A program made the position numbers and the translations under genes. Under the pieces are notes generated by a model. That model searched no databases, was not told where the DNA came from, and was given only the letters and a program-made list of their open reading frames with translations. Of a DNA stretch of 9,627 nt, positions 1-9,627 are shown piece after piece; the first letter of the stretch is position 1; each line of letters starts with the position of its first letter. The stretch comes from a bacterium (GTDB taxonomy: Bacteria > Gemmatimonadota > Gemmatimonadetes > Gemmatimonadales > Gemmatimonadaceae). The stretch covers positions 1 through 9,627 of the forward strand of contig JAJZRK010000128.1 in NCBI GenBank assembly GCA_021802745.1, in the 5' to 3' direction.

Positions 1-72
1 CTACCCGGCCCGCCCCCTCCCCCCTCACTCCTCTCTCCACTCCTCCCCCCTTCCAAGCCCCTGCACCCCTCC
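1..72. repeat. Palindromic element E1, right half only (left half beyond the window)
   Basis: This is a pyrimidine-rich stretch ending in CTGCACCCCTCC at 61-72, five bases before the dehydrogenase stop codon. From the GGCC at 7-10 outward it aligns without gaps over 62 bases to the right half of E3 (8668-8729), with about ten mismatches by eye. In both copies the distance from the GGCC centre to the outer end is the same. The matching purine-rich left arm would lie to the left of the window. The GGCC at 7-10 being the true centre is an inference from this equal spacing. Confidence 0.7.
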
Positions 73-77
73 TCCTC

Positions 78-1559
78 CTAGTAGTTGTCTATTTGCGCCC
101 TCTGCAGCGCCCCCGAGTAATCGATGTATCCCACCTTCGTCTCCGAGAAGAACTCGTACACTTCCCATCCCCCTTCCCGGTGGCCGTTCCCGGTCGCCTT
201 CACGCCGCCGAACGGCAGGTGCGCCTCCGCGCCGATGGTCGGCGCGTTGATGTACGTGATGCCGTTGTCGAGTTGCTGCAGCGCCTGGAACGAGACATTC
301 ACGTCGCGCGTGTAGACCGACGATGACAGGCCATACGCCACGTCGTTGTTCACCGTGAACGCCTCGGCGGCGTCCTTCACCTTGATGACGCTCAGCACCG
401 GGCCGAAGATCTCCTCCTGCTCGAGGCGCGAGCCTGCCTTCACGTTGGTGAAGATCGTCGGCTGATAGAAGAAGCCGTGGTCGAGGTCGCCGCCGGTCGC
501 CGTCTGGCCGCCGAGCGCGAGCGTGGCGCCCTCGCCCTTCCCGATCTGCACGTAGTTCTCGACGTTCGCGCGCGCCGCCTCATTGACGAGCGGCCCCATG
601 TCGGTCCCCTTCTTGCGGCCGTCGCCGAGCGTGAGCCTGGCGGCGCGGTCCACGAGCATCTGCACAAACTTGTCGTGCACGCCCTCCTGCACGATCAGGC
701 GGCTCGTCGCCGTGCAGCGCTGGCCCGTCGTGCCAAAGGCGCCCCACAGCACGCCGTCGAGCGCGAGGTCGAGGTCGGCGTCATTCAGCACGATCATGGC
801 GTTCTTGCCGCCCATTTCGAGCGACAGCCGCTTGTGCGTCCGGCCGCAGACTTCACCGATCTTGCTTCCGGTCTCCGTGGAGCCCGTGAACGACACGAGC
901 GCAACGTCCGGGTGATTTACGATCGCGTTGCCCACCCGCCCCGGGCCGTGCACCAGCTGCACCACCTCGGGCGGGAGTCCCGCCTCAAGCAGGATCTCGA
1001 CGAGCACGTGCCCCGTGTGCGGCACATCCGTGGCCGGCTTGAAGACCACCGCGTTGCCGCAGAGGAGCGCCGGGAAGATCTTCCAGGTCGGGATGGCGAG
1101 CGGGAAGTTGAACGGCGTGATGATGCCGGCCACGCCAATGGGGCGGCGGAACGACATCGCCCACTTGTTGCGCAGTTCGCTCGGCACCGTGTGGCCGAAC
1201 AGCCGGCGCCCCTCGGTGGCCGCGTAGTAGGCGGTGTCAATGCCTTCCTGCACGTCGCCCTTGGTCTCGGCGATCGGCTTGCCCATCTCGCGGGTCATCA
1301 AGTCGGCGAGTTCATCCTTGCGGCGCACGAGGATGTCGCCCACGCGCCGCAGCACGTCGCCGCGGGCCGGCGCCGGGGTGTTCTTCCAGAGCTCGAAGCC
1401 TCGCTTGGCGCTCGCGACGGCGCGATTGACGTCGGCGGCGTCGCCCTTGGGGAACTGGCCAATCACGTCGCGCGTGTCGGCCGGGTTGCGATTCTCGGCG
1501 TGTTCGCCCGTGGACGAGTCAACCCACTCGCCGGCGATGAAGCTCTTGAACGTTGTCAT
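78..1559 (-). CDS. NAD(P)+-dependent aldehyde dehydrogenase, substrate not assigned
   Basis: This 493-residue protein has the usual length of a soluble ALDH-superfamily enzyme, which oxidises an aldehyde to a carboxylate. The fold markers are in order: TPFNFP with Asn151, FKPA with Lys174 (cofactor binding), FTGST at 224-228, LEMGGKN with general base Glu248, GQRCTA with catalytic Cys282, and EEIFGPV with Glu383 in the cofactor site. The tail reading GAEAHLPFGGVKATGNGHRE suggests the semialdehyde/ALDH7-like side of the family (compare alpha-aminoadipic, ketoglutaric or pyrroline-carboxylate semialdehyde enzymes), but the substrate cannot be fixed from sequence. The ATG at 1557-1559 gives a normal N-terminus (MTTFKSFIAGEW). 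No Shine-Dalgarno sequence is visible before it: the upstream bases read GCCCTTCAT, and the heptamer array starts 12 bases from the start codon. The stop TAG (78-80) is followed after five bases by palindrome E1. It is transcribed away from the blaI unit and has no operon partner in view. Confidence 0.95.
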   Translation of the reverse strand: MTTFKSFIAGEWVDSSTGEHAENRNPADTRDVIGQFPKGDAADVNRAVASAKRGFELWKNTPAPARGDVLRRVGDILVRRKDELADLMTREMGKPIAETKGDVQEGIDTAYYAATEGRRLFGHTVPSELRNKWAMSFRRPIGVAGIITPFNFPLAIPTWKIFPALLCGNAVVFKPATDVPHTGHVLVEILLEAGLPPEVVQLVHGPGRVGNAIVNHPDVALVSFTGSTETGSKIGEVCGRTHKRLSLEMGGKNAMIVLNDADLDLALDGVLWGAFGTTGQRCTATSRLIVQEGVHDKFVQMLVDRAARLTLGDGRKKGTDMGPLVNEAARANVENYVQIGKGEGATLALGGQTATGGDLDHGFFYQPTIFTNVKAGSRLEQEEIFGPVLSVIKVKDAAEAFTVNNDVAYGLSSSVYTRDVNVSFQALQQLDNGITYINAPTIGAEAHLPFGGVKATGNGHREGGWEVYEFFSETKVGYIDYSGALQRAQIDNY

Positions 1560-1570
1560 ATGAAGGGCAG

Positions 1571-1626
1571 ACGGTAGACGGTAGACGGTGGACGGTAGAC
1601 GGTGGACGGTGGACGGTGGATGGTGA
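1571..1626 (+). repeat. Heptamer tandem array, left copy (GTRGACG units)
   Basis: Seven exact-length units read ACGGTAG or ACGGTGG (1571-1619), followed by a decayed eighth unit ATGGTGA (1620-1626). The units differ only by A or G at one position. The array lies 12 bases upstream of the dehydrogenase ATG, where its ribosome site and promoter would be expected. The same heptamer appears in the opposite orientation at 4051-4141. Confidence 0.95.
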
Positions 1627-2283: not shown

Positions 2284-3911
2284 TTGCCACCTGGATGCTC
2301 GCCGCGACGGCGCTCGGCCTGTTGGCCGGCGGCGGCGCCCTCGCCGCCGAACGCGCACTGCGCCTGCTGAACCGACAGGGGCGCCACGTCTGGGTGCTCG
2401 CGCTCGCGGGCACCTGCGCCTGGCCGCTGCTCGCGCCGGCGCTGCCGCGCCCCGACGTCGCGTCGGTGCTGGAGCGCGTGACGACATCGAGCGTCGGCCC
2501 GATCGCCGCCGGCACGTACGATCTCACCCTTGGCGCTCCTGGCGTGCGGGAGCGTCTGGCAGCGCTTGACCGGCCGCTCGTCGTGCTCTGGGCCGCCGTC
2601 TCCGCACTCCTGCTCACGCGCACCCTCCTTGCCGTCCTGACGCTGCGCCGGCTGGCGCGACGTGCGGAGCCGCACACGGTGGACGGCCGCGAGGTTCTCA
2701 TCACGCCCGGCGTCGGCCCGGCCGCGTTCGGCATCGTCCGGCCGCGCATCGTGCTGCCGCGATGGTCGCTCGAACTCGACACGCCCATGCGCGCGCTGGT
2801 GGTGCGCCATGAGGTGGAGCACGTGCGCTGCGCGGATCCCGCCGTGCTGACGATCGGCTGGTTCGTGGCGGCCCTGTTGCCGTGGAACGTCGGGCTCTGG
2901 TGGCTTGTCCGCCGCCTGCGCACCGCCACGGAGCTCGACTGCGATCAGCGCGTGCTCCGCAGCGGCGCCGATTCCCGCCGATACGCCCAACTCTTGATGC
3001 TCATCGCCCAGCGACAGGGGCACGCCGTCTTCGCCTCGATGATCGCCGGCTCGCCGTCCACTCTTCCCATCAGGATTGCTGCCATGCACTCGACTCCACC
3101 CGCTCGCCGCATCCTCCGCGCGGCGCTGTTGTCGCTCGCCGCGCTCGCCCTCGGCGCCCTCGCGGCCTCGCCCGCGCTCGCTCGAGAACTCGCCAGTGTT
3201 CGCGATCGCGTTGCCTCGCTCGCCGACCCGGGCGCGGCGGCGACGGTGGTCGCGTCGAACAGCGCCTCCGACTTCCCACGCGCGCTGCCCGTGGTCACGA
3301 CTATGCCGCCTCGCACGGAAGCCGATCCGCGCCGCCTGACCGCTCAGGACACTGCGAAGAAGACGAAGCTGTCATTCAAGAAGGTCGAGCAGGACACAAC
3401 CGGAAAAGTCGTGCGGGACACGACGAAGAAGGGACTGCCGCCAGGCTACAAGCTCGTACGAGATACCACCTTGGCGGACGGGAAGACGCACGTGTTGACC
3501 ATCCAGGGACCACTCTCGAAGGTCCAGCGAGACTCCAACAAGACGACCCTCGAGGGTCGGGGCGTGCCGGCCCCCGGTTCACTACAACCCCGATACCCAG
3601 AGATCCTCAAGTCAGCTGGGGTGAGCGGCGTCACGATCGTGCAGTTTGTCGTGGACACGACGGGCCGGGCGATCCCCGAGACCATGAAGGTGGTGCGCTC
3701 CAGTCATGAGTTGTTTACCAGGGCCGTGCAGGCCTCGCTGCCAGAGCAGCGCTTCCTCGCGGCGCGCGTCGGCGGGCGGTCCGTCAAGCAGCTCGTGCAG
3801 ATGTACTTCTGGTTCGAAGTCCAGGGATACCCGCCGCGCGACACCGTGGCCGCTCCCACGGGACCGATGCCGACATTCAAGGTCTTTATCACGGGGATTG
3901 TGGCGCGCTAG
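2280..3911 (+). CDS. M56 (BlaR1-like) membrane metallopeptidase fused to a TonB C-terminal domain
   Basis: This 543-residue protein is the partner of the upstream repressor. Hydrophobic segments near residues 3-23, 36-55, 99-121, 189-209 and 279-300 suggest a multi-span membrane protein. The zinc-protease core shows HEVEH (177-181; ligands His177 and His181, catalytic Glu178) and a downstream ELDCD (218-222) supplying the probable third ligand Glu218. After the last helix comes a polar linker (about 301-430) with repeated DTT motifs at 372, 380 and 395. Residues 435-515 match the TonB C-terminal fold (LQPRYPEILKSAGVSG, then VQFVVDTTGRA). The penicillin-binding sensor of classical BlaR1 (SxxK and related motifs) is absent. 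By analogy with BlaR1, a signal in the periplasm would activate the cytosolic-side peptidase and relieve BlaI repression; what the TonB-like end senses or contacts is unknown. GGAGG (2270-2274) lies five bases before the ATG. Confidence 0.92.
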   Translation: MIATWMLAATALGLLAGGGALAAERALRLLNRQGRHVWVLALAGTCAWPLLAPALPRPDVASVLERVTTSSVGPIAAGTYDLTLGAPGVRERLAALDRPLVVLWAAVSALLLTRTLLAVLTLRRLARRAEPHTVDGREVLITPGVGPAAFGIVRPRIVLPRWSLELDTPMRALVVRHEVEHVRCADPAVLTIGWFVAALLPWNVGLWWLVRRLRTATELDCDQRVLRSGADSRRYAQLLMLIAQRQGHAVFASMIAGSPSTLPIRIAAMHSTPPARRILRAALLSLAALALGALAASPALARELASVRDRVASLADPGAAATVVASNSASDFPRALPVVTTMPPRTEADPRRLTAQDTAKKTKLSFKKVEQDTTGKVVRDTTKKGLPPGYKLVRDTTLADGKTHVLTIQGPLSKVQRDSNKTTLEGRGVPAPGSLQPRYPEILKSAGVSGVTIVQFVVDTTGRAIPETMKVVRSSHELFTRAVQASLPEQRFLAARVGGRSVKQLVQMYFWFEVQGYPPRDTVAAPTGPMPTFKVFITGIVAR

Positions 3912-3916
3912 GATGC

Positions 3917-3996
3917 TTCGAAGACGAAGCGGCCGGTTCGAAGACGAATCGGCTGGTTCGAGGACGAGTTGGCCGGTTCGACGACGCAGCGGGCGC
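3917..3996 (+). repeat. Degenerate 20-base tandem repeat, four units
   Basis: Units start at 3917, 3937, 3957 and 3977 and follow the pattern TTCGAAGACGAAKCGGCYGG, diverging progressively to the right. Each begins with TTCG-NNNN-CGAA or a decayed form. The first copy with its flanks forms a six-base stem GCTTCG-AAGA-CGAAGC (3915-3930). The array starts five bases after the M56 stop codon and runs into the left arm of the terminator. Confidence 0.85.
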
Positions 3997-4017: not shown

Positions 4018-4050
4018 CGTTATTGCTCCCAGCTCTCCTCCCCCATCCCC

Positions 4051-4141
4051 CGTCAACCGTCAACCGTCTACCGTCAACCGTCCACCGTCCACCGTCTACC
4101 GTCTACCGTCTACCGTCCACCGTCTACCGTCTACCGTCTAC
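4051..4141 (-). repeat. Heptamer tandem array, right copy (inverted relative to the left copy)
   Basis: Thirteen contiguous 7-base units read CGTCTAC, CGTCCAC or CGTCAAC; on the minus strand these are GTAGACG, GTGGACG and GTTGACG. All variation is at a single position. The unit is the same as at 1571-1626 but in the opposite orientation, so the two arrays face each other across the blaI-M56 operon. The last unit overlaps the stop codon (4138-4140) of the minus-strand membrane protein gene. Confidence 0.97.
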
Positions 4142-5982: not shown

Positions 5983-6639
5983 TCATGGCACCGCCTTGTA
6001 GAGCACGACCTTCCCCTTGGTAATGCGCACGTCCGCCACTGCCGGCGGCACCGGAATCGCGATGATGCCGGGCGCCAGGCTGTCGGTGCGCTGCTTCACG
6101 CCTATGCGCCGCACGATCCGCTCGATCAGCGCCGATGGCAGGCGCAGTTCGTTCACGGTCATCTGCGTCACCTGCAGTCCAAGCAGGCCCGGCTGCAGCA
6201 TGGAGAGCCGCCCGCCAATGAGCACCGACTGACGCCCGTCCAACATGCTGCCAAGCGGGCCGAGCGACTTGGGATCGCCGAGCTCGTTGACGGCGACGTT
6301 GGCGCGCACGAGCAGCACCTCACCCTGCACCGACGCCTCCGGCTGGGCCGCGGCGGTGCCGAGGATCTTCATCGCGGGCGTCAGCTGCCACGCCACGAAC
6401 TCCGCCGGCGTCAGGCTGGCGTAGACGGGGCCATTCTTCGCCGCCAGTCGCTCGGCGGCTCGCGTCCCCGCCGTTGCTGCGTCGGGCGTGATGGGGGTCC
6501 ATGCAATCGTGTCCGCCGGCGGTGTCGCCACCACCATGGCGCGCACCCGCGGATACCACCATGGCTTCGTGTACCAGCCGCCCACCGCGAGCACGGCGAG
6601 CAACAGCAGGCAACCCAGCCGCCCGAGGCATCCGAACAT
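5983..6639 (-). CDS. Membrane-anchored extracytoplasmic protein of unknown function
   Basis: This 218-residue protein has one N-terminal hydrophobic segment (about 8-22) followed by an aromatic patch (WYTKPWWYP, 22-30), consistent with a signal anchor. No lipobox is visible. The rest is soluble and probably beta-rich, ending in a motif-like stretch LRLPSALIERIVRRI (166-179), then IPVPPAVADVRITKGKVVLY. That ending loosely resembles lipid-binding or YpmS/LmeA-like extracytoplasmic proteins, but the resemblance is weak and no function is assigned. The ATG overlaps the stop of larE by one base (TGATG at the junction) and its own stop lies 37 bases before the response regulator start, so it probably belongs to the same operon. 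Confidence 0.87.
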   Translation of the reverse strand: MFGCLGRLGCLLLLAVLAVGGWYTKPWWYPRVRAMVVATPPADTIAWTPITPDAATAGTRAAERLAAKNGPVYASLTPAEFVAWQLTPAMKILGTAAAQPEASVQGEVLLVRANVAVNELGDPKSLGPLGSMLDGRQSVLIGGRLSMLQPGLLGLQVTQMTVNELRLPSALIERIVRRIGVKQRTDSLAPGIIAIPVPPAVADVRITKGKVVLYKAVP

Positions 6640-7538
6640 CAGTCACTCTCCATGAGATCGAGCACGCGCGCGTCGGCCCGTTCTTCGCGCGTCAGTTCGT
6701 TCAGCGATCCGCTGCGGAAGCCGCGCAAGTCCAGTTCGACGCGCGCGAAGCCGGCGGCTTGCACCGCCCCGCGAACTGCGGGCCGCTGGGCCGGCGCGCC
6801 CCAGCGCTCCATCTGGTCGTAGTCCAGCTCCAGGCGCGCCGTCTCGCCGTGGAACCGCACGCGCAGGTTGCCCGTGACCCCAAGGGCACGCAGCGCCCGC
6901 TCGGCGTTCTCCACCTTTCGAAGGCGCAGCGGCGTCACCTCGGTGCCGTGCGGCAACCGCGACGAGAGGCACGGCGAGGCCGGCTGGTCCCAGGTGGGAA
7001 TGCCGCGACGGCGCGAGAGCGCGCGGATGTCCTGCTTGGAGAACTTCAGTTCCTGCAGCGGCGACTTCACGCCTGCCTCGCGGCCGGCCTGCGCCCCGGG
7101 GCGAAAGTCGGCCGTGTCATCGTCGTTGCTGCCGTCCACGATCACGGCGATGCCGCGCTCGCGGGCGATGGGCACCAGCTTGCCCCACAGTTCGGTCTTG
7201 CAGTAGTAGCAGCGATTCACCGGATTGGCGGCGTAGCGCGGATCGCTCATCTCGTCGGTGTCAAGCTCGAGCACCGGCACGCCAAACTCGTCCGCCACCT
7301 GCCGCGCCCGCGTCCACTGCTCCAGCGGATACGAGGCGCTGCGCCCGATCACCGCCAGCACGTGCGACGCCCCCACCGCCTCGAGTGCCACGCACGCGAG
7401 GTAGGCGGAATCAATGCCGCCCGAGTAGCCGATCAGCACGGAACCATGCTGCCGGAACCACTCGAGCAACCGCCCTTCCTTGTCGAGGAGCAGGGATGGT
7501 GCGGTCGTGAGGTCGGTGGAGTCGCGGTCCGTATCCAT
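6639..7538 (-). CDS. larE: LarE-like ATP-dependent sulfur transferase (PP-loop)
   Basis: This 299-residue protein matches the length and motifs of LarE, which adenylates and thiolates the pyridinium dicarboxylate precursor of the nickel-pincer nucleotide cofactor. The PP-loop SGGIDS is at 39-44. NRCYYCKTELW holds Cys110 and Cys113, and ASPCLSSRLPHG holds Cys190, the position of the sacrificial cysteine in Lactobacillus LarE. Having all three cysteines fits the LarE type reported to bind a [4Fe-4S] cluster instead of sacrificing a protein cysteine; this is inferred from sequence alone. ATG 7536-7538 is preferred: a longer frame to 7682 reads low-complexity residues encoded by palindrome E2. 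No Shine-Dalgarno is visible before it. It heads the set that continues with the anchored protein, the response regulator and the small membrane protein. No larA, larB or larC is seen, so the protein may serve a distant lar locus or another thiolation reaction. Confidence 0.9.
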   Translation of the reverse strand: MDTDRDSTDLTTAPSLLLDKEGRLLEWFRQHGSVLIGYSGGIDSAYLACVALEAVGASHVLAVIGRSASYPLEQWTRARQVADEFGVPVLELDTDEMSDPRYAANPVNRCYYCKTELWGKLVPIARERGIAVIVDGSNDDDTADFRPGAQAGREAGVKSPLQELKFSKQDIRALSRRRGIPTWDQPASPCLSSRLPHGTEVTPLRLRKVENAERALRALGVTGNLRVRFHGETARLELDYDQMERWGAPAQRPAVRGAVQAAGFARVELDLRGFRSGSLNELTREERADARVLDLMESD

Positions 7539-7604
7539 AGTGAATGAAAGGTACTGTCCACTATTACGGACGGGAGGAACAAAAGTGCCAATTCTGGGGC
7601 GAGA

Positions 7605-7722
7605 GGAGGAGTGCGGGGGCTTCGGAGGGGGAAGAGTGGAGAAAGGTGGGAGGAGATGGGAGGCCTCATCTCCCACTCTCATCCCTACACTCCTCCCCCT
7701 CCCTTAACCCCTGCACCCCTCC
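7605..7722. repeat. Palindromic element E2
   Basis: This is an imperfect inverted repeat of about 118 bases. A purine-rich left arm starts GGAGGAGTGCGGGG at 7605 and a pyrimidine-rich right arm ends CCCCTGCACCCCTCC at 7722, with AGGCCT (7661-7666) exactly at the centre. The inner part GAGATGGGAGG/CCTCATCTC also pairs with a small bulge. It ends on the base before the methyltransferase stop codon (7723) and fills most of the gap before larE (start 7538). It could act as a transcription terminator or a mobile palindrome; the sequence alone does not separate these. Confidence 0.85.
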
Positions 7723-8574
7723 TCACCCCCGCTCCATCACCACCACTCCCGCCATGCGCGCCGATTCCTCGCGCTGCCGTCTGGTCGAGAGTTTCCCGAT
7801 GAGGTTCCACAGCCACGCCCCGCGCATCGTGCGATTGAGTCGGAAGCTCTCGTGCCAGCTCGACCGGAACTCCCGCTCCAGCCAGCCCGCGCGTGCGAAG
7901 AAAGCGGTCCCCTCCGCCGGGGCGAACTGGAACGGCGCCTTCCCCTGCGCGGCGGCCTTTCCCCACGAGCGCAGCATCCACTTGAGCAGGCGCGGGCTGG
8001 CGAGGTCAATCATCCACCAGCGGAAACTCGCGTGCGCGCCAAGGTCGGCGGAGAGCGACGCGACATCGTCCGTGGCGAGGTAGATGAGCAGGCCTTCGGC
8101 GATGACGAAGACGCGCCGATGCTGCTGCGCCACCCGCGAGAACAGCTCGCGGCGCACCGCCGCGTTCGACAAGTCGGCCGCGGCCCGTTCGTACTGGCAG
8201 CTCGCCTGCCCGTCCTTGAGCACCGTCCACTTGTAGTCGAGCACGTCCTCGAAATCCACGTCCACCCAGTGCAGCGCCGGCGGGAGCGACAGGCGGAACG
8301 GCCGCGCGTCGAGCCCCGCCGCGAGGTTGAGCACGCAGTCCACGCCGTCGTCCCGCACGTGCCGCATCAAGATCTCGTCCATCACGGCGGTGCGCACGAT
8401 CATGGACCAGGCCGCGTGCACGCCGTTCTTCATGGTGCGCACGATCTCCTCGCCGCGCGCGCCGGCGAGTCGTCGAGCGAACGGATCATGGAACAGCGCG
8501 TCAGGGCGCTCCGTCTCCATGGCGCGGTAGACGGCAACCCAGCGGGCGGTGTCGGAGATGTGCGTGATAGGCAT
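7723..8574 (-). CDS. SAM-dependent O-methyltransferase, LCM/TIGR00027 type
   Basis: This 283-residue protein resembles the leucine carboxyl methyltransferase/PPM-like class I methyltransferases often annotated as TIGR00027. The N-terminal signature is TARWVAVYRAME then RPDALFHDPFARRLAG (9-38). The SAM-binding motif I is VLNLAAGLDARPFRL (81-95), followed by WVDVDFEDVLDYK (103-115), where the acidic residue after strand 2 contacts SAM, and IAEGLLIYL (158-166). Family members methylate carboxylate or hydroxyl groups on diverse small molecules; the substrate here is unknown. ATG 8572-8574 is chosen because the conserved N-terminus starts there and GGAG lies nine bases upstream. Longer frames to 8590 or 8697 read into palindrome E3 and look unlike protein. 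The gene is bracketed by palindromes E2 and E3. Confidence 0.92.
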   Translation of the reverse strand: MPITHISDTARWVAVYRAMETERPDALFHDPFARRLAGARGEEIVRTMKNGVHAAWSMIVRTAVMDEILMRHVRDDGVDCVLNLAAGLDARPFRLSLPPALHWVDVDFEDVLDYKWTVLKDGQASCQYERAAADLSNAAVRRELFSRVAQQHRRVFVIAEGLLIYLATDDVASLSADLGAHASFRWWMIDLASPRLLKWMLRSWGKAAAQGKAPFQFAPAEGTAFFARAGWLEREFRSSWHESFRLNRTMRGAWLWNLIGKLSTRRQREESARMAGVVVMERG

Positions 8575-8605
8575 TGAGGGGGGCTCCATATCGGTTGGGG
8601 TGCGA

Positions 8606-8729
8606 GGAGGAGTGCAGCGGCTTAGGAGGAGAGAGGAGTGGAGCGCGGAGGTAGGAGCAATCAGGCCTGCCTCACCGCCCCTCTCTCCTCTCTCCACTCC
8701 TCTCTCCTTCCAAACCCCTGCACTCCTCC
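8606..8729. repeat. Palindromic element E3
   Basis: This is an imperfect inverted repeat of about 124 bases. The outer 50 bases of each arm (8606-8655 and 8680-8729) pair at about 84 percent by eye, starting GGAGGAGTGCAG on the left and ending CTGCACTCCTCC on the right. The exact palindrome CAGGCCTG (8662-8669) is near the centre. The left arm is almost all purine and the right almost all pyrimidine. The right end is one base from the amidohydrolase stop codon (8731), and the left end is about 30 bases from the methyltransferase start. Confidence 0.9.
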
Positions 8730-8730
8730 C

Positions 8731-9627
8731 CTACCGTCGGTAACCCGGCCCGCGCACAACTTGCCCCGGCTTCGCCCCCGTATGCCTGCCGTCCCGCACC
8801 ACCGCCACGCCGTTGACAAAGACATCCTTCATCCCCGTCGAGAGCTGGTGCGGTTTCTCGAAGGTCGCGTTGTCAATGATCGTGTTCGGGTCGAACACCA
8901 CGAGGTCGGCCTTGAGGCCGGGCTTGATGACGCCGCGGTCGTGAATCTGCAGGCGCGTGGCAACCGCGGATGACGCCTTGCGCACGGCGTCCTCGAGCGG
9001 CGTCACCTGCTCGGCGCGCACGTACTTGCCGAGCAGGCGCGGGACGTTGCCGTAGGCGCGCGGATGCACCATGCCGCGGGCGCGCGCGGGATCCTGCGCG
9101 CTGGCATCGGTGCCGAACTTCATCCACGGCAGGCGAATCTGCTTCTGGATGTTCTCCTCGCTCATCAGGAACAGGATTTCGCTGAGTCCAAGGTTCTCTG
9201 CGATGTTGAGGTCAATGATCACCTCGGCCCAGTCCTTGTTCATCGCCGCGGCGATCTCGCTCAGCCGCTTCCCCTCGAACTGCTGGTACTCCGGCTTCTT
9301 GAAGCCCACCACCATCACGTTGGGCGGTGTGGCCGCCTCGCAGAGATTCTCGTAGCCCGCGTCGCGCGCGTGGATCTCCGCGATCATCGTCGCGCGCAGC
9401 GCCGGGTTCCTGAGGTTGTCCATCAGCTTGCCGTCGGCCGCGTACTTGGGCGGGATGCAGCTCGCGAACGAGTTGCCGCCGGCCGGATACAGGTACATGT
9501 CGGCCTGCACGTCCTGGCCGGCGGCGCGTGCGCTGTCAATCTTCGCGATCGCCACGGCCAGCTTGGGCCAGTTGCGGACGCCCGCCGCTTTCAGATGGTA
9601 GATTTCAACGGGAACCGCCGCCTGCCG
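8731..9627 (-). CDS. D-aminoacylase / N-acyl-D-amino-acid deacylase family amidohydrolase (partial, N-terminus outside window)
   Basis: The visible 298 residues are the C-terminal part of a metal-dependent amidohydrolase. The frame is open to the right edge, so the start lies beyond 9627; the GTG at 9555 is internal. Family signatures are clear: VEIYHLKAAG with metal-ligand candidate His11 of the fragment, then NWPK, ADMYLYPAGGNS (42-53), FGTDASA with catalytic or metal Asp174, and GMVHPRAYG with His188. The C-terminal beta-sandwich has the usual IKPGLKADLVVFDPNTI and VFVNGVAVVRDGRHTGAKPG. The family removes acyl groups from N-acyl-D-amino acids or related amides, and many members are secreted or periplasmic. 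Whether this one has a signal peptide cannot be seen. The stop TAG (8731-8733) is followed by palindrome E3, and the methyltransferase follows on the same strand. Confidence 0.93.
   Translation of the reverse strand, partial: RQAAVPVEIYHLKAAGVRNWPKLAVAIAKIDSARAAGQDVQADMYLYPAGGNSFASCIPPKYAADGKLMDNLRNPALRATMIAEIHARDAGYENLCEAATPPNVMVVGFKKPEYQQFEGKRLSEIAAAMNKDWAEVIIDLNIAENLGLSEILFLMSEENIQKQIRLPWMKFGTDASAQDPARARGMVHPRAYGNVPRLLGKYVRAEQVTPLEDAVRKASSAVATRLQIHDRGVIKPGLKADLVVFDPNTIIDNATFEKPHQLSTGMKDVFVNGVAVVRDGRHTGAKPGQVVRGPGYRR

Follow-up and report, generated by a model that had tools for sequence, protein, structure and literature searches.

The nearest published case for the elements described here is that of the G-rich heptamer repeats of Xanthomonas (GGGAATC) and Nostoc (GGGGA(C/T)T), which follow the same positional rule. 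According to PMC4692102, these heptamers lie mostly 0–50 bp past stop codons on the coding strand, sometimes overlapping the stop, and ahead of start codons on the other strand; 70–75 inverted heptamer pairs are given per Xanthomonas genome, related species carry altered sequence at the same intergenic place, and no function was found. REP sequences are dispersed extragenic palindromes as well, and a minority of them lie within 15 nt of a stop codon (RepRanger, PMC12306157; see also the GTAG/CGTC REPs, PMC3733652), most being 20–50 nt in size (PMC12306157). The TAACTGA heptamers of Beggiatoaceae resemble part of our material as 7-nt intergenic repeats at gene borders, but they stand mainly ahead of starts and are direct rather than inverted (PMC4679880). 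BoxC/PIT intrastrand triplex motifs are likewise purine/pyrimidine repeats tied to variable loci; they are described as a 36-nt three-part motif in E. coli (PMC4666352). By title, none of the open PMC papers found on repeats or palindromes of Gemmatimonas or Gemmatimonadetes deals with the elements treated below.

The DNA analysed here is a stretch of 9,627 nt from a member of the Gemmatimonadaceae (contig JAJZRK010000128.1, hereafter the window), carrying three elements, E1 to E3, whose family is called E-type. As in Xanthomonas and Nostoc, a G-rich arm on the coding strand lies within 50 bp of a stop codon. Whereas the Xanthomonas and Nostoc repeats are described as arrays of a single heptamer that form G-quadruplexes in vitro (PMC4692102), non-simple 60-nt arms in palindromes of about 124 nt are also found here, and this one genus has several families, which may differ at a given gene end. 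At 118–124 nt the E-type palindromes are also larger than most REPs, and no REP-associated transposase consistently accompanies them. The intergenic ERIC palindromes of enterobacteria, about 127 bp long, are similar to the E-type in length, place and palindromy; to our knowledge, no post-stop rule applies to ERIC.

Elements and genes of the window

All three elements directly follow genes on the minus strand. E3 (8606..8729, minus strand) lies between the stop of an amidohydrolase gene (8731..9627, minus strand; PF07969; cut by the contig end) and the start of a class I SAM methyltransferase gene of the LCM family (7723..8574, minus strand; PF04072). Its two arms of 61 nt are 80% complementary and separated by a 2-nt spacer, and its fold has an energy of -107.1 kcal/mol (z -11.02). 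E2 (7605..7722, minus strand; -90 kcal/mol, z -7.97) lies between the methyltransferase stop and a NAD-synthase/LarE-like gene (6639..7541, minus strand; PF02540). E1 (1..72, minus strand; blastn place 7–72, 56 of 66 positions identical to E3) stands past the stop of an aldehyde dehydrogenase (ALDH) gene (78..1559, minus strand; PF00171, E 3.5e-169), and is only a half copy, the start of the contig cutting through it. On the minus (coding) strand, the distance from stop to element is 5 nt for E1, 0 nt for E2 and 1 nt for E3. The total length of E2 and E3 is 118–124 nt, with arms of about 60 nt. The two complete copies and one half copy of the original prediction were thus borne out, and the GGCC described there is found in all three. 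The ungapped likeness that it reported between E1 and E3 extends over 66 nt with 10 mismatches (identity 0.848; best of 2000 dinucleotide shuffles 0.714). Over the same stretch E2 and E3 agree without gaps at only 42 of 66 positions, a value reached by 1 of 2000 shuffles, and a good alignment of these two requires gaps.

The arms are purine/pyrimidine-biased, and the intergenic DNA is partly periodic: among lags 2–30, z peaks at lag 7 in all intergenic DNA (10.8 in the window, 11.8 and 7.8 in samples of the related genomes G134 and G128), lags 3 and 6 being high as well. Both features would suit an artefact of C/T-rich spacer composition. However, when each arm was shuffled by itself, which preserves its purine/pyrimidine make-up, the self-complementarity of E2 was reached by 0 of 1000 shuffles and that of E3 by 0 of 1000; the E1/E3 likeness was reached by 0 of 2000, and no such hairpin occurs in the 42 comparable gaps of 13 loci from outside the genus. 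Chance likeness from low complexity, which the original prediction had wished to see controlled, is excluded by these shuffles, and the compositional explanation, being refuted, has practically no probability left. No Rfam family reached its curated cut-off anywhere in the window, and no match was found in the phages and plasmids searched. A strict palindrome scan of 48 sequences (the window and 47 loci) reported E3 alone, at settings that were too strict.

Copies in related genomes and their position past stop codons

The genomes of the relatives are fragmentary, the window is placed in its genus by the ALDH tree and by gene order only, and the genes of all loci were called with a simple gene caller of our own. 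With E3 as query at E 0.001, at least 8 of the 179 genomes from the family of G001 gave matches (four candidates scored per genome), and G128 was richest in the E-type, with at least 86 matches (40 of 54 candidates scored). In stretches selected for their matches, the blastn places numbered 45 in G128, 5 each in G129 and G131, 4 in G126, 1 in G123 and 3 in the window; some of the 45 represent both arms of a single element, some are at the ends of contigs, and the G128 loci, from an incomplete 2.0-Mb genome, were selected for holding a copy. The search for further copies, proposed with the original prediction, therefore returned many. The 29 genomes reached via relatives of the methyltransferase gave just two weak 33-nt matches, both in G024. 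Copies of a second family, named after G134, are present in at least 7 of 11 genus genomes (at most 40 candidates scored per genome); with each palindrome counted on both strands, the matches are at least 79 in G134, 88 in G129, 61 in G126, 40 in G127, 22 in G128, 14 in G130 and 4 in G131. Among 8 hairpins of score at least 80 in 200 kb of G134 chosen blind, one is G134-type, and among 8 such hairpins in 117 kb of G128 none is clearly E-type. The copies of both families are unevenly spread, a point against the reading preferred below. Other hairpin families, of GATTGGG, CGAAGG and ACAACAG types, also lie close to gene ends (L159 and L160 of G128; L145–L154 of G134).

The many copies lie mostly at gene ends, are alike within a genome, and stand at sites that may be occupied in one relative and empty in another. 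A gene 3' end is found within 70 nt of 33 of the 45 places in G128 and within 15 nt of 27 of the 45 (overlap of up to 60 nt allowed). In all these genomes together, 44 elements with a palindrome score of at least 80 comprise 29 between co-directional genes, 9 between convergent genes and 3 each between divergent genes and at contig edges. The convergent class contains at least one error, since one of its elements lies within a called gene. Within the co-directional gaps, 24 of 29 elements are closer to the upstream stop than to the next start (p 0.0005; medians -2 and 58 nt). Single arms also occur past stops, at one site in G128 and two in G126 (sites S1, and S3 and S4, of the G128 contig C70 discussed below). 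Hairpins of score at least 60 were found in 11 of 36 co-directional gaps of at least 80 nt in G134 (the blind 200 kb plus a 19-kb locus picked for its genes) and in 5 of 28 in G128 (10 contig stretches, previously fetched contigs excluded), against 0 of 42 in the 13 Gemmatimonadota loci outside the genus. The purine fraction is higher past stops than ahead of starts (0.568 vs 0.429 in G134; 0.557 vs 0.461 in G128). This post-stop bias needs either a target preference or selection.

Selection could act on an end-of-gene RNA hairpin serving as terminator, 3'-end protector or translation brake, in which case position and fold would count and the sequence would be free. The post-stop position agrees with this, as do the leaders after E1 and E2, which appear promoter-like. 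REPs within 15 nt of a stop lower translation (PMC12306157), and in Xanthomonas the starts or ends of transcripts are more frequent at repeats that form G-quadruplexes than at control ones (PMC4692102). On the other hand, the copies at L112 and L122 lie 53–61 nt past the gene, after an apparent ordinary terminator hairpin, and 3 of 41 elements stand between divergent genes; compared with 11 of 53 gaps, the depletion there is not significant (Fisher p 0.085). A run of at least four T, as expected of an intrinsic terminator, follows just 3 of 30 elements.

Integron attC sites, which are palindromes past cassette genes, are similar to these elements in length, palindromy and post-stop position, and an integron integrase exceeds its family cut-off in 4 of 11 genus genomes (G001, G126, G133 and G134). 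However, neither of the attC cores, RYYYAAC and GTTRRRY, stands at the expected end in any of 32 elements, the copy-rich G128 has no integrase over the cut-off, and the gene order of the window is conserved in G134 and G001 rather than forming a cassette array. The attC explanation is refuted by these observations, and we consider it highly improbable.

Repeat families at matching gene ends

The window and G134 have seven genes in common order, 75–95% identical, the G134 locus being without the BlaI-like and M56-like genes of the window and having a UbiE-like gene in addition. In G134, palindromes stand at the gene ends of E1, E2 and E3, with the arm sequence of the other family. Although the alignment of such low-complexity arms is uncertain, arm identity is 0.735 within the window (8 pairs) and 0.718 within G134 (40 pairs), as against 0.528 for all pairs between the two (50 pairs) and 0.547 for orthologous pairs (5 pairs, range 0.49–0.61). 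Orthologous arms thus resemble each other no more than window and G134 arms do in general. In G001 (locus L001) the genes are present, no hairpin in 20.8 kb has a score of at least 75, and a smaller 7-nt-repeat hairpin (score 60) follows the ALDH gene.

Across the relatives, the ALDH stop is followed by the E-type in the window and G128, by the G134-type in G134 and G126, by various 7-nt-repeat arrays in G130, G131, G127, G129, G001 and G135, by a terminator-like hairpin in G133, and by repeats without a hairpin in G132. Thus some related species have another family at this gene end. When these hairpins were compared with 200 shuffles each, they were reached by none in 9 of 11 genomes, by 1 in G133 and by 138 in G132, the stretches having been cut by hand in a way that favours the hairpins. 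With the same reservation about the cutting, in 10 of 11 relatives the hairpin past this stop is therefore equalled by no more than 1 of 200 shuffles, despite changed sequence, and the occupation of one gene end across many species, with a terminator-like hairpin in G133, would also fit a selected RNA hairpin. Past the amidohydrolase stop, a palindrome with a score above 75 occurs in 2 of 8 relatives (G134 and G127, both G134-type); in G128 an E-type arm runs into the contig end, G126 retains a shortened remnant, and no palindrome is seen in G133, G001, G135 and G130. At this site, where the window has E3, G001 has a 9-nt gap and no element, which counts against an RNA hairpin as the thing selected.

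In the ALDH tree, G126 and G128 are sisters with a support of 100 (another node has 96, the remainder 30–71), and their families differ at the E1 site and at sites S4 and S5 of the G128 contig C70. The five E-type sites of this contig (S1–S5) give a similar picture across relatives, with families assigned by alignment to two consensus strings and a shuffle control for the E-type only. G126 shares the E-type with G128 at S2 and, with a single arm, at S3, a site where G129 has it too; at S4 and S5 the G134-type is found in G126, G134 and G129 (at S4 as a single arm in G126 and G134). Several other relatives are without an element at these sites: G127 has a 9-nt gap at S2, and what looks like coding sequence directly follows the stop at S3 in G134 and G127. 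Since a 9-nt gap or no element stands against an element of 120–150 nt in relatives, sites have been gained or lost. The different palindrome families at matching gene ends of related species suggest that one family replaces another.

The comparison of orthologous loci proposed with the original prediction thus gave occupied and empty sites, target duplications being unreadable at this divergence. The label MITE-like or REP-like, which it also offered, holds for a dispersed palindrome family with many copies and sites gained or lost, and stays an analogy beyond that. As in a classical non-autonomous MITE or REP mobilised by a dedicated transposase, the elements are inverted repeats, non-coding, dispersed and present in many copies, their sites differ among relatives, and single arms occur. 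However, the REP-associated transposase PF01797 was found in 2 of 12 genomes and not in G128, an incomplete genome with the most E-type copies; no target duplications were seen, the empty sites being too diverged to read; and the 7-nt-repeat families at those gene ends are unlike transposon ends. We regard this explanation as improbable. Neither a mobilising enzyme (PF01797 and integron integrase being the families covered) nor a target duplication nor an intermediate came to light, which also counts against the DNA-level reading preferred below.

Arm sequence, pairing and genes between arms

Under selection for an RNA hairpin, G.U should outnumber A.C among coding-strand mismatches. In 32 orientable elements of the 44, the coding strand has 127 G.U and 133 A.C mismatches (86 vs 92 in G128; 15 vs 16 in G129), and it is the more stable strand in 17 of 32. 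In the window, E2 and E3 alone have 12 G.U and 6 A.C, and both give the better fold on the coding strand, which favours the RNA hairpin; two copies are too few to decide. Covariation between arms was not found in the E-type, where identity is 0.737 within a copy and 0.748 across copies (reached by 8681 of 10000 permutations; 22 of 25 copies of G128 and the window, three longer than 170 nt being excluded). In 14 G134-type copies the values are 0.762 and 0.752 (1019 of 5000; not clear), and in six copies of G134 the arm identity within a copy is slightly above that across copies (0.750 vs 0.728; 649 of 5000). Consequently, the dedicated end-of-gene RNA structure suggested by the original prediction agrees with the position past the stop and is not supported by the G.U and covariation tests over the whole sample, and we hold such a hairpin to be possible but rather doubtful as the main object of selection.

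The columns of the E-type arm are of two sharply distinct kinds, near-invariant or free (57 columns, chi2 647.7, indicative only, the arms being related). Uneven columns are not expected from uniform decay after insertion, and this suggests that the arm sequence, rather than the pairing, may be constrained. The 7-nt periodicity of the E-type arm is weak (0.476 at lag 7, the next value being 0.472 at lag 19), and several other families at these gene ends are clear 7-nt arrays.

Such arrays also flank genes. In the window, an array of the TAGACGG type on the coding strand (4043..4141, minus strand) holds the stop of a 148-aa gene and is 92% complementary to 1566–1624; its inverted partner, with inverted-repeat matches to it, lies just ahead of the ALDH start (1566..1625, plus strand). 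A BlaI-like (PF03965) and an M56-like (PF05569) gene are enclosed by these two arrays, which are 2.4 kb apart. Three direct repeats with 20-nt spacing, of TTCGAAGACGAA type, were also noted at 3911–3990, directly past the stop of the M56-like gene. In six relatives, inverted arrays with hairpin scores of 64–125 lie in the gap that separates the 148-aa gene from ALDH; they extend near the ALDH start in G134, G130, G131 and G129 and stop earlier in G126 and G132; no hairpin above 40 was found in this gap in G127, G001, G135 and one G133 contig. The 148-aa gene is absent from the locus in G128 and the other G133 contig, and G128 has relatives of the BlaI and M56 genes upstream of ALDH. At the E2 site of G134, the UbiE-like methyltransferase gene (L144 8769–9605) is flanked by two palindromes; in the window E2 is the only one at this place. 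The window methyltransferase, flanked by E3 and E2, is found in 2 of 11 genus genomes; its best other homologs are 75% identical, one of them labelled Gemmatimonadaceae. These arrangements would be consistent with gene insertion and loss at the repeats. However, the Xanthomonas and Nostoc heptamers are reported in more stable regions (PMC4692102), which counts against a general link with gene insertion.

On balance, E1 to E3 are probably copies of a dispersed non-coding repeat of inverted pairs that is spread and homogenised as DNA and occupies gene ends, a reading to which we lean with some reserve. One purine-rich arm of about 45–60 nt lies on the coding strand directly past the stop, followed by its reverse complement towards the next gene. 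Spread and homogenisation would take place at the DNA level, with transposition in trans, gene conversion and templated copying as candidate routes, and one family would replace another within the same gene-end niche. Each arm appears to be kept for its sequence, which probably serves in recognition or copying, and the RNA hairpin would be a by-product, tolerated or sometimes used by the gene end, and not the main selected thing. A further-reaching proposal is that gene ends in this genus are niches of competing families of inverted motifs, each with its own recognition or copying factor that rewrites both arms at occupied sites. Families would then be replaced site by site while the post-stop position is kept, and genes, such as the UbiE-like gene in G134 and BlaI-M56 in the window, would end up between arms or copies. 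This proposal is speculative, and we judge it unlikely as it stands.

The question at stake is why G-rich inverted repeats gather past stops in unrelated bacteria; PMC4692102 leaves the function of such repeats open. Within the literature searched, the new observation is that several families, long non-simple palindromes among them, coexist at the same gene ends, together with tests of sequence against pairing. A dozen related genomes with different families at one gene end allow position, pairing and sequence to be told apart, so that the question can be tested. In this genus, the position is often kept, the pairing apparently not, and the sequence is kept within a genome.
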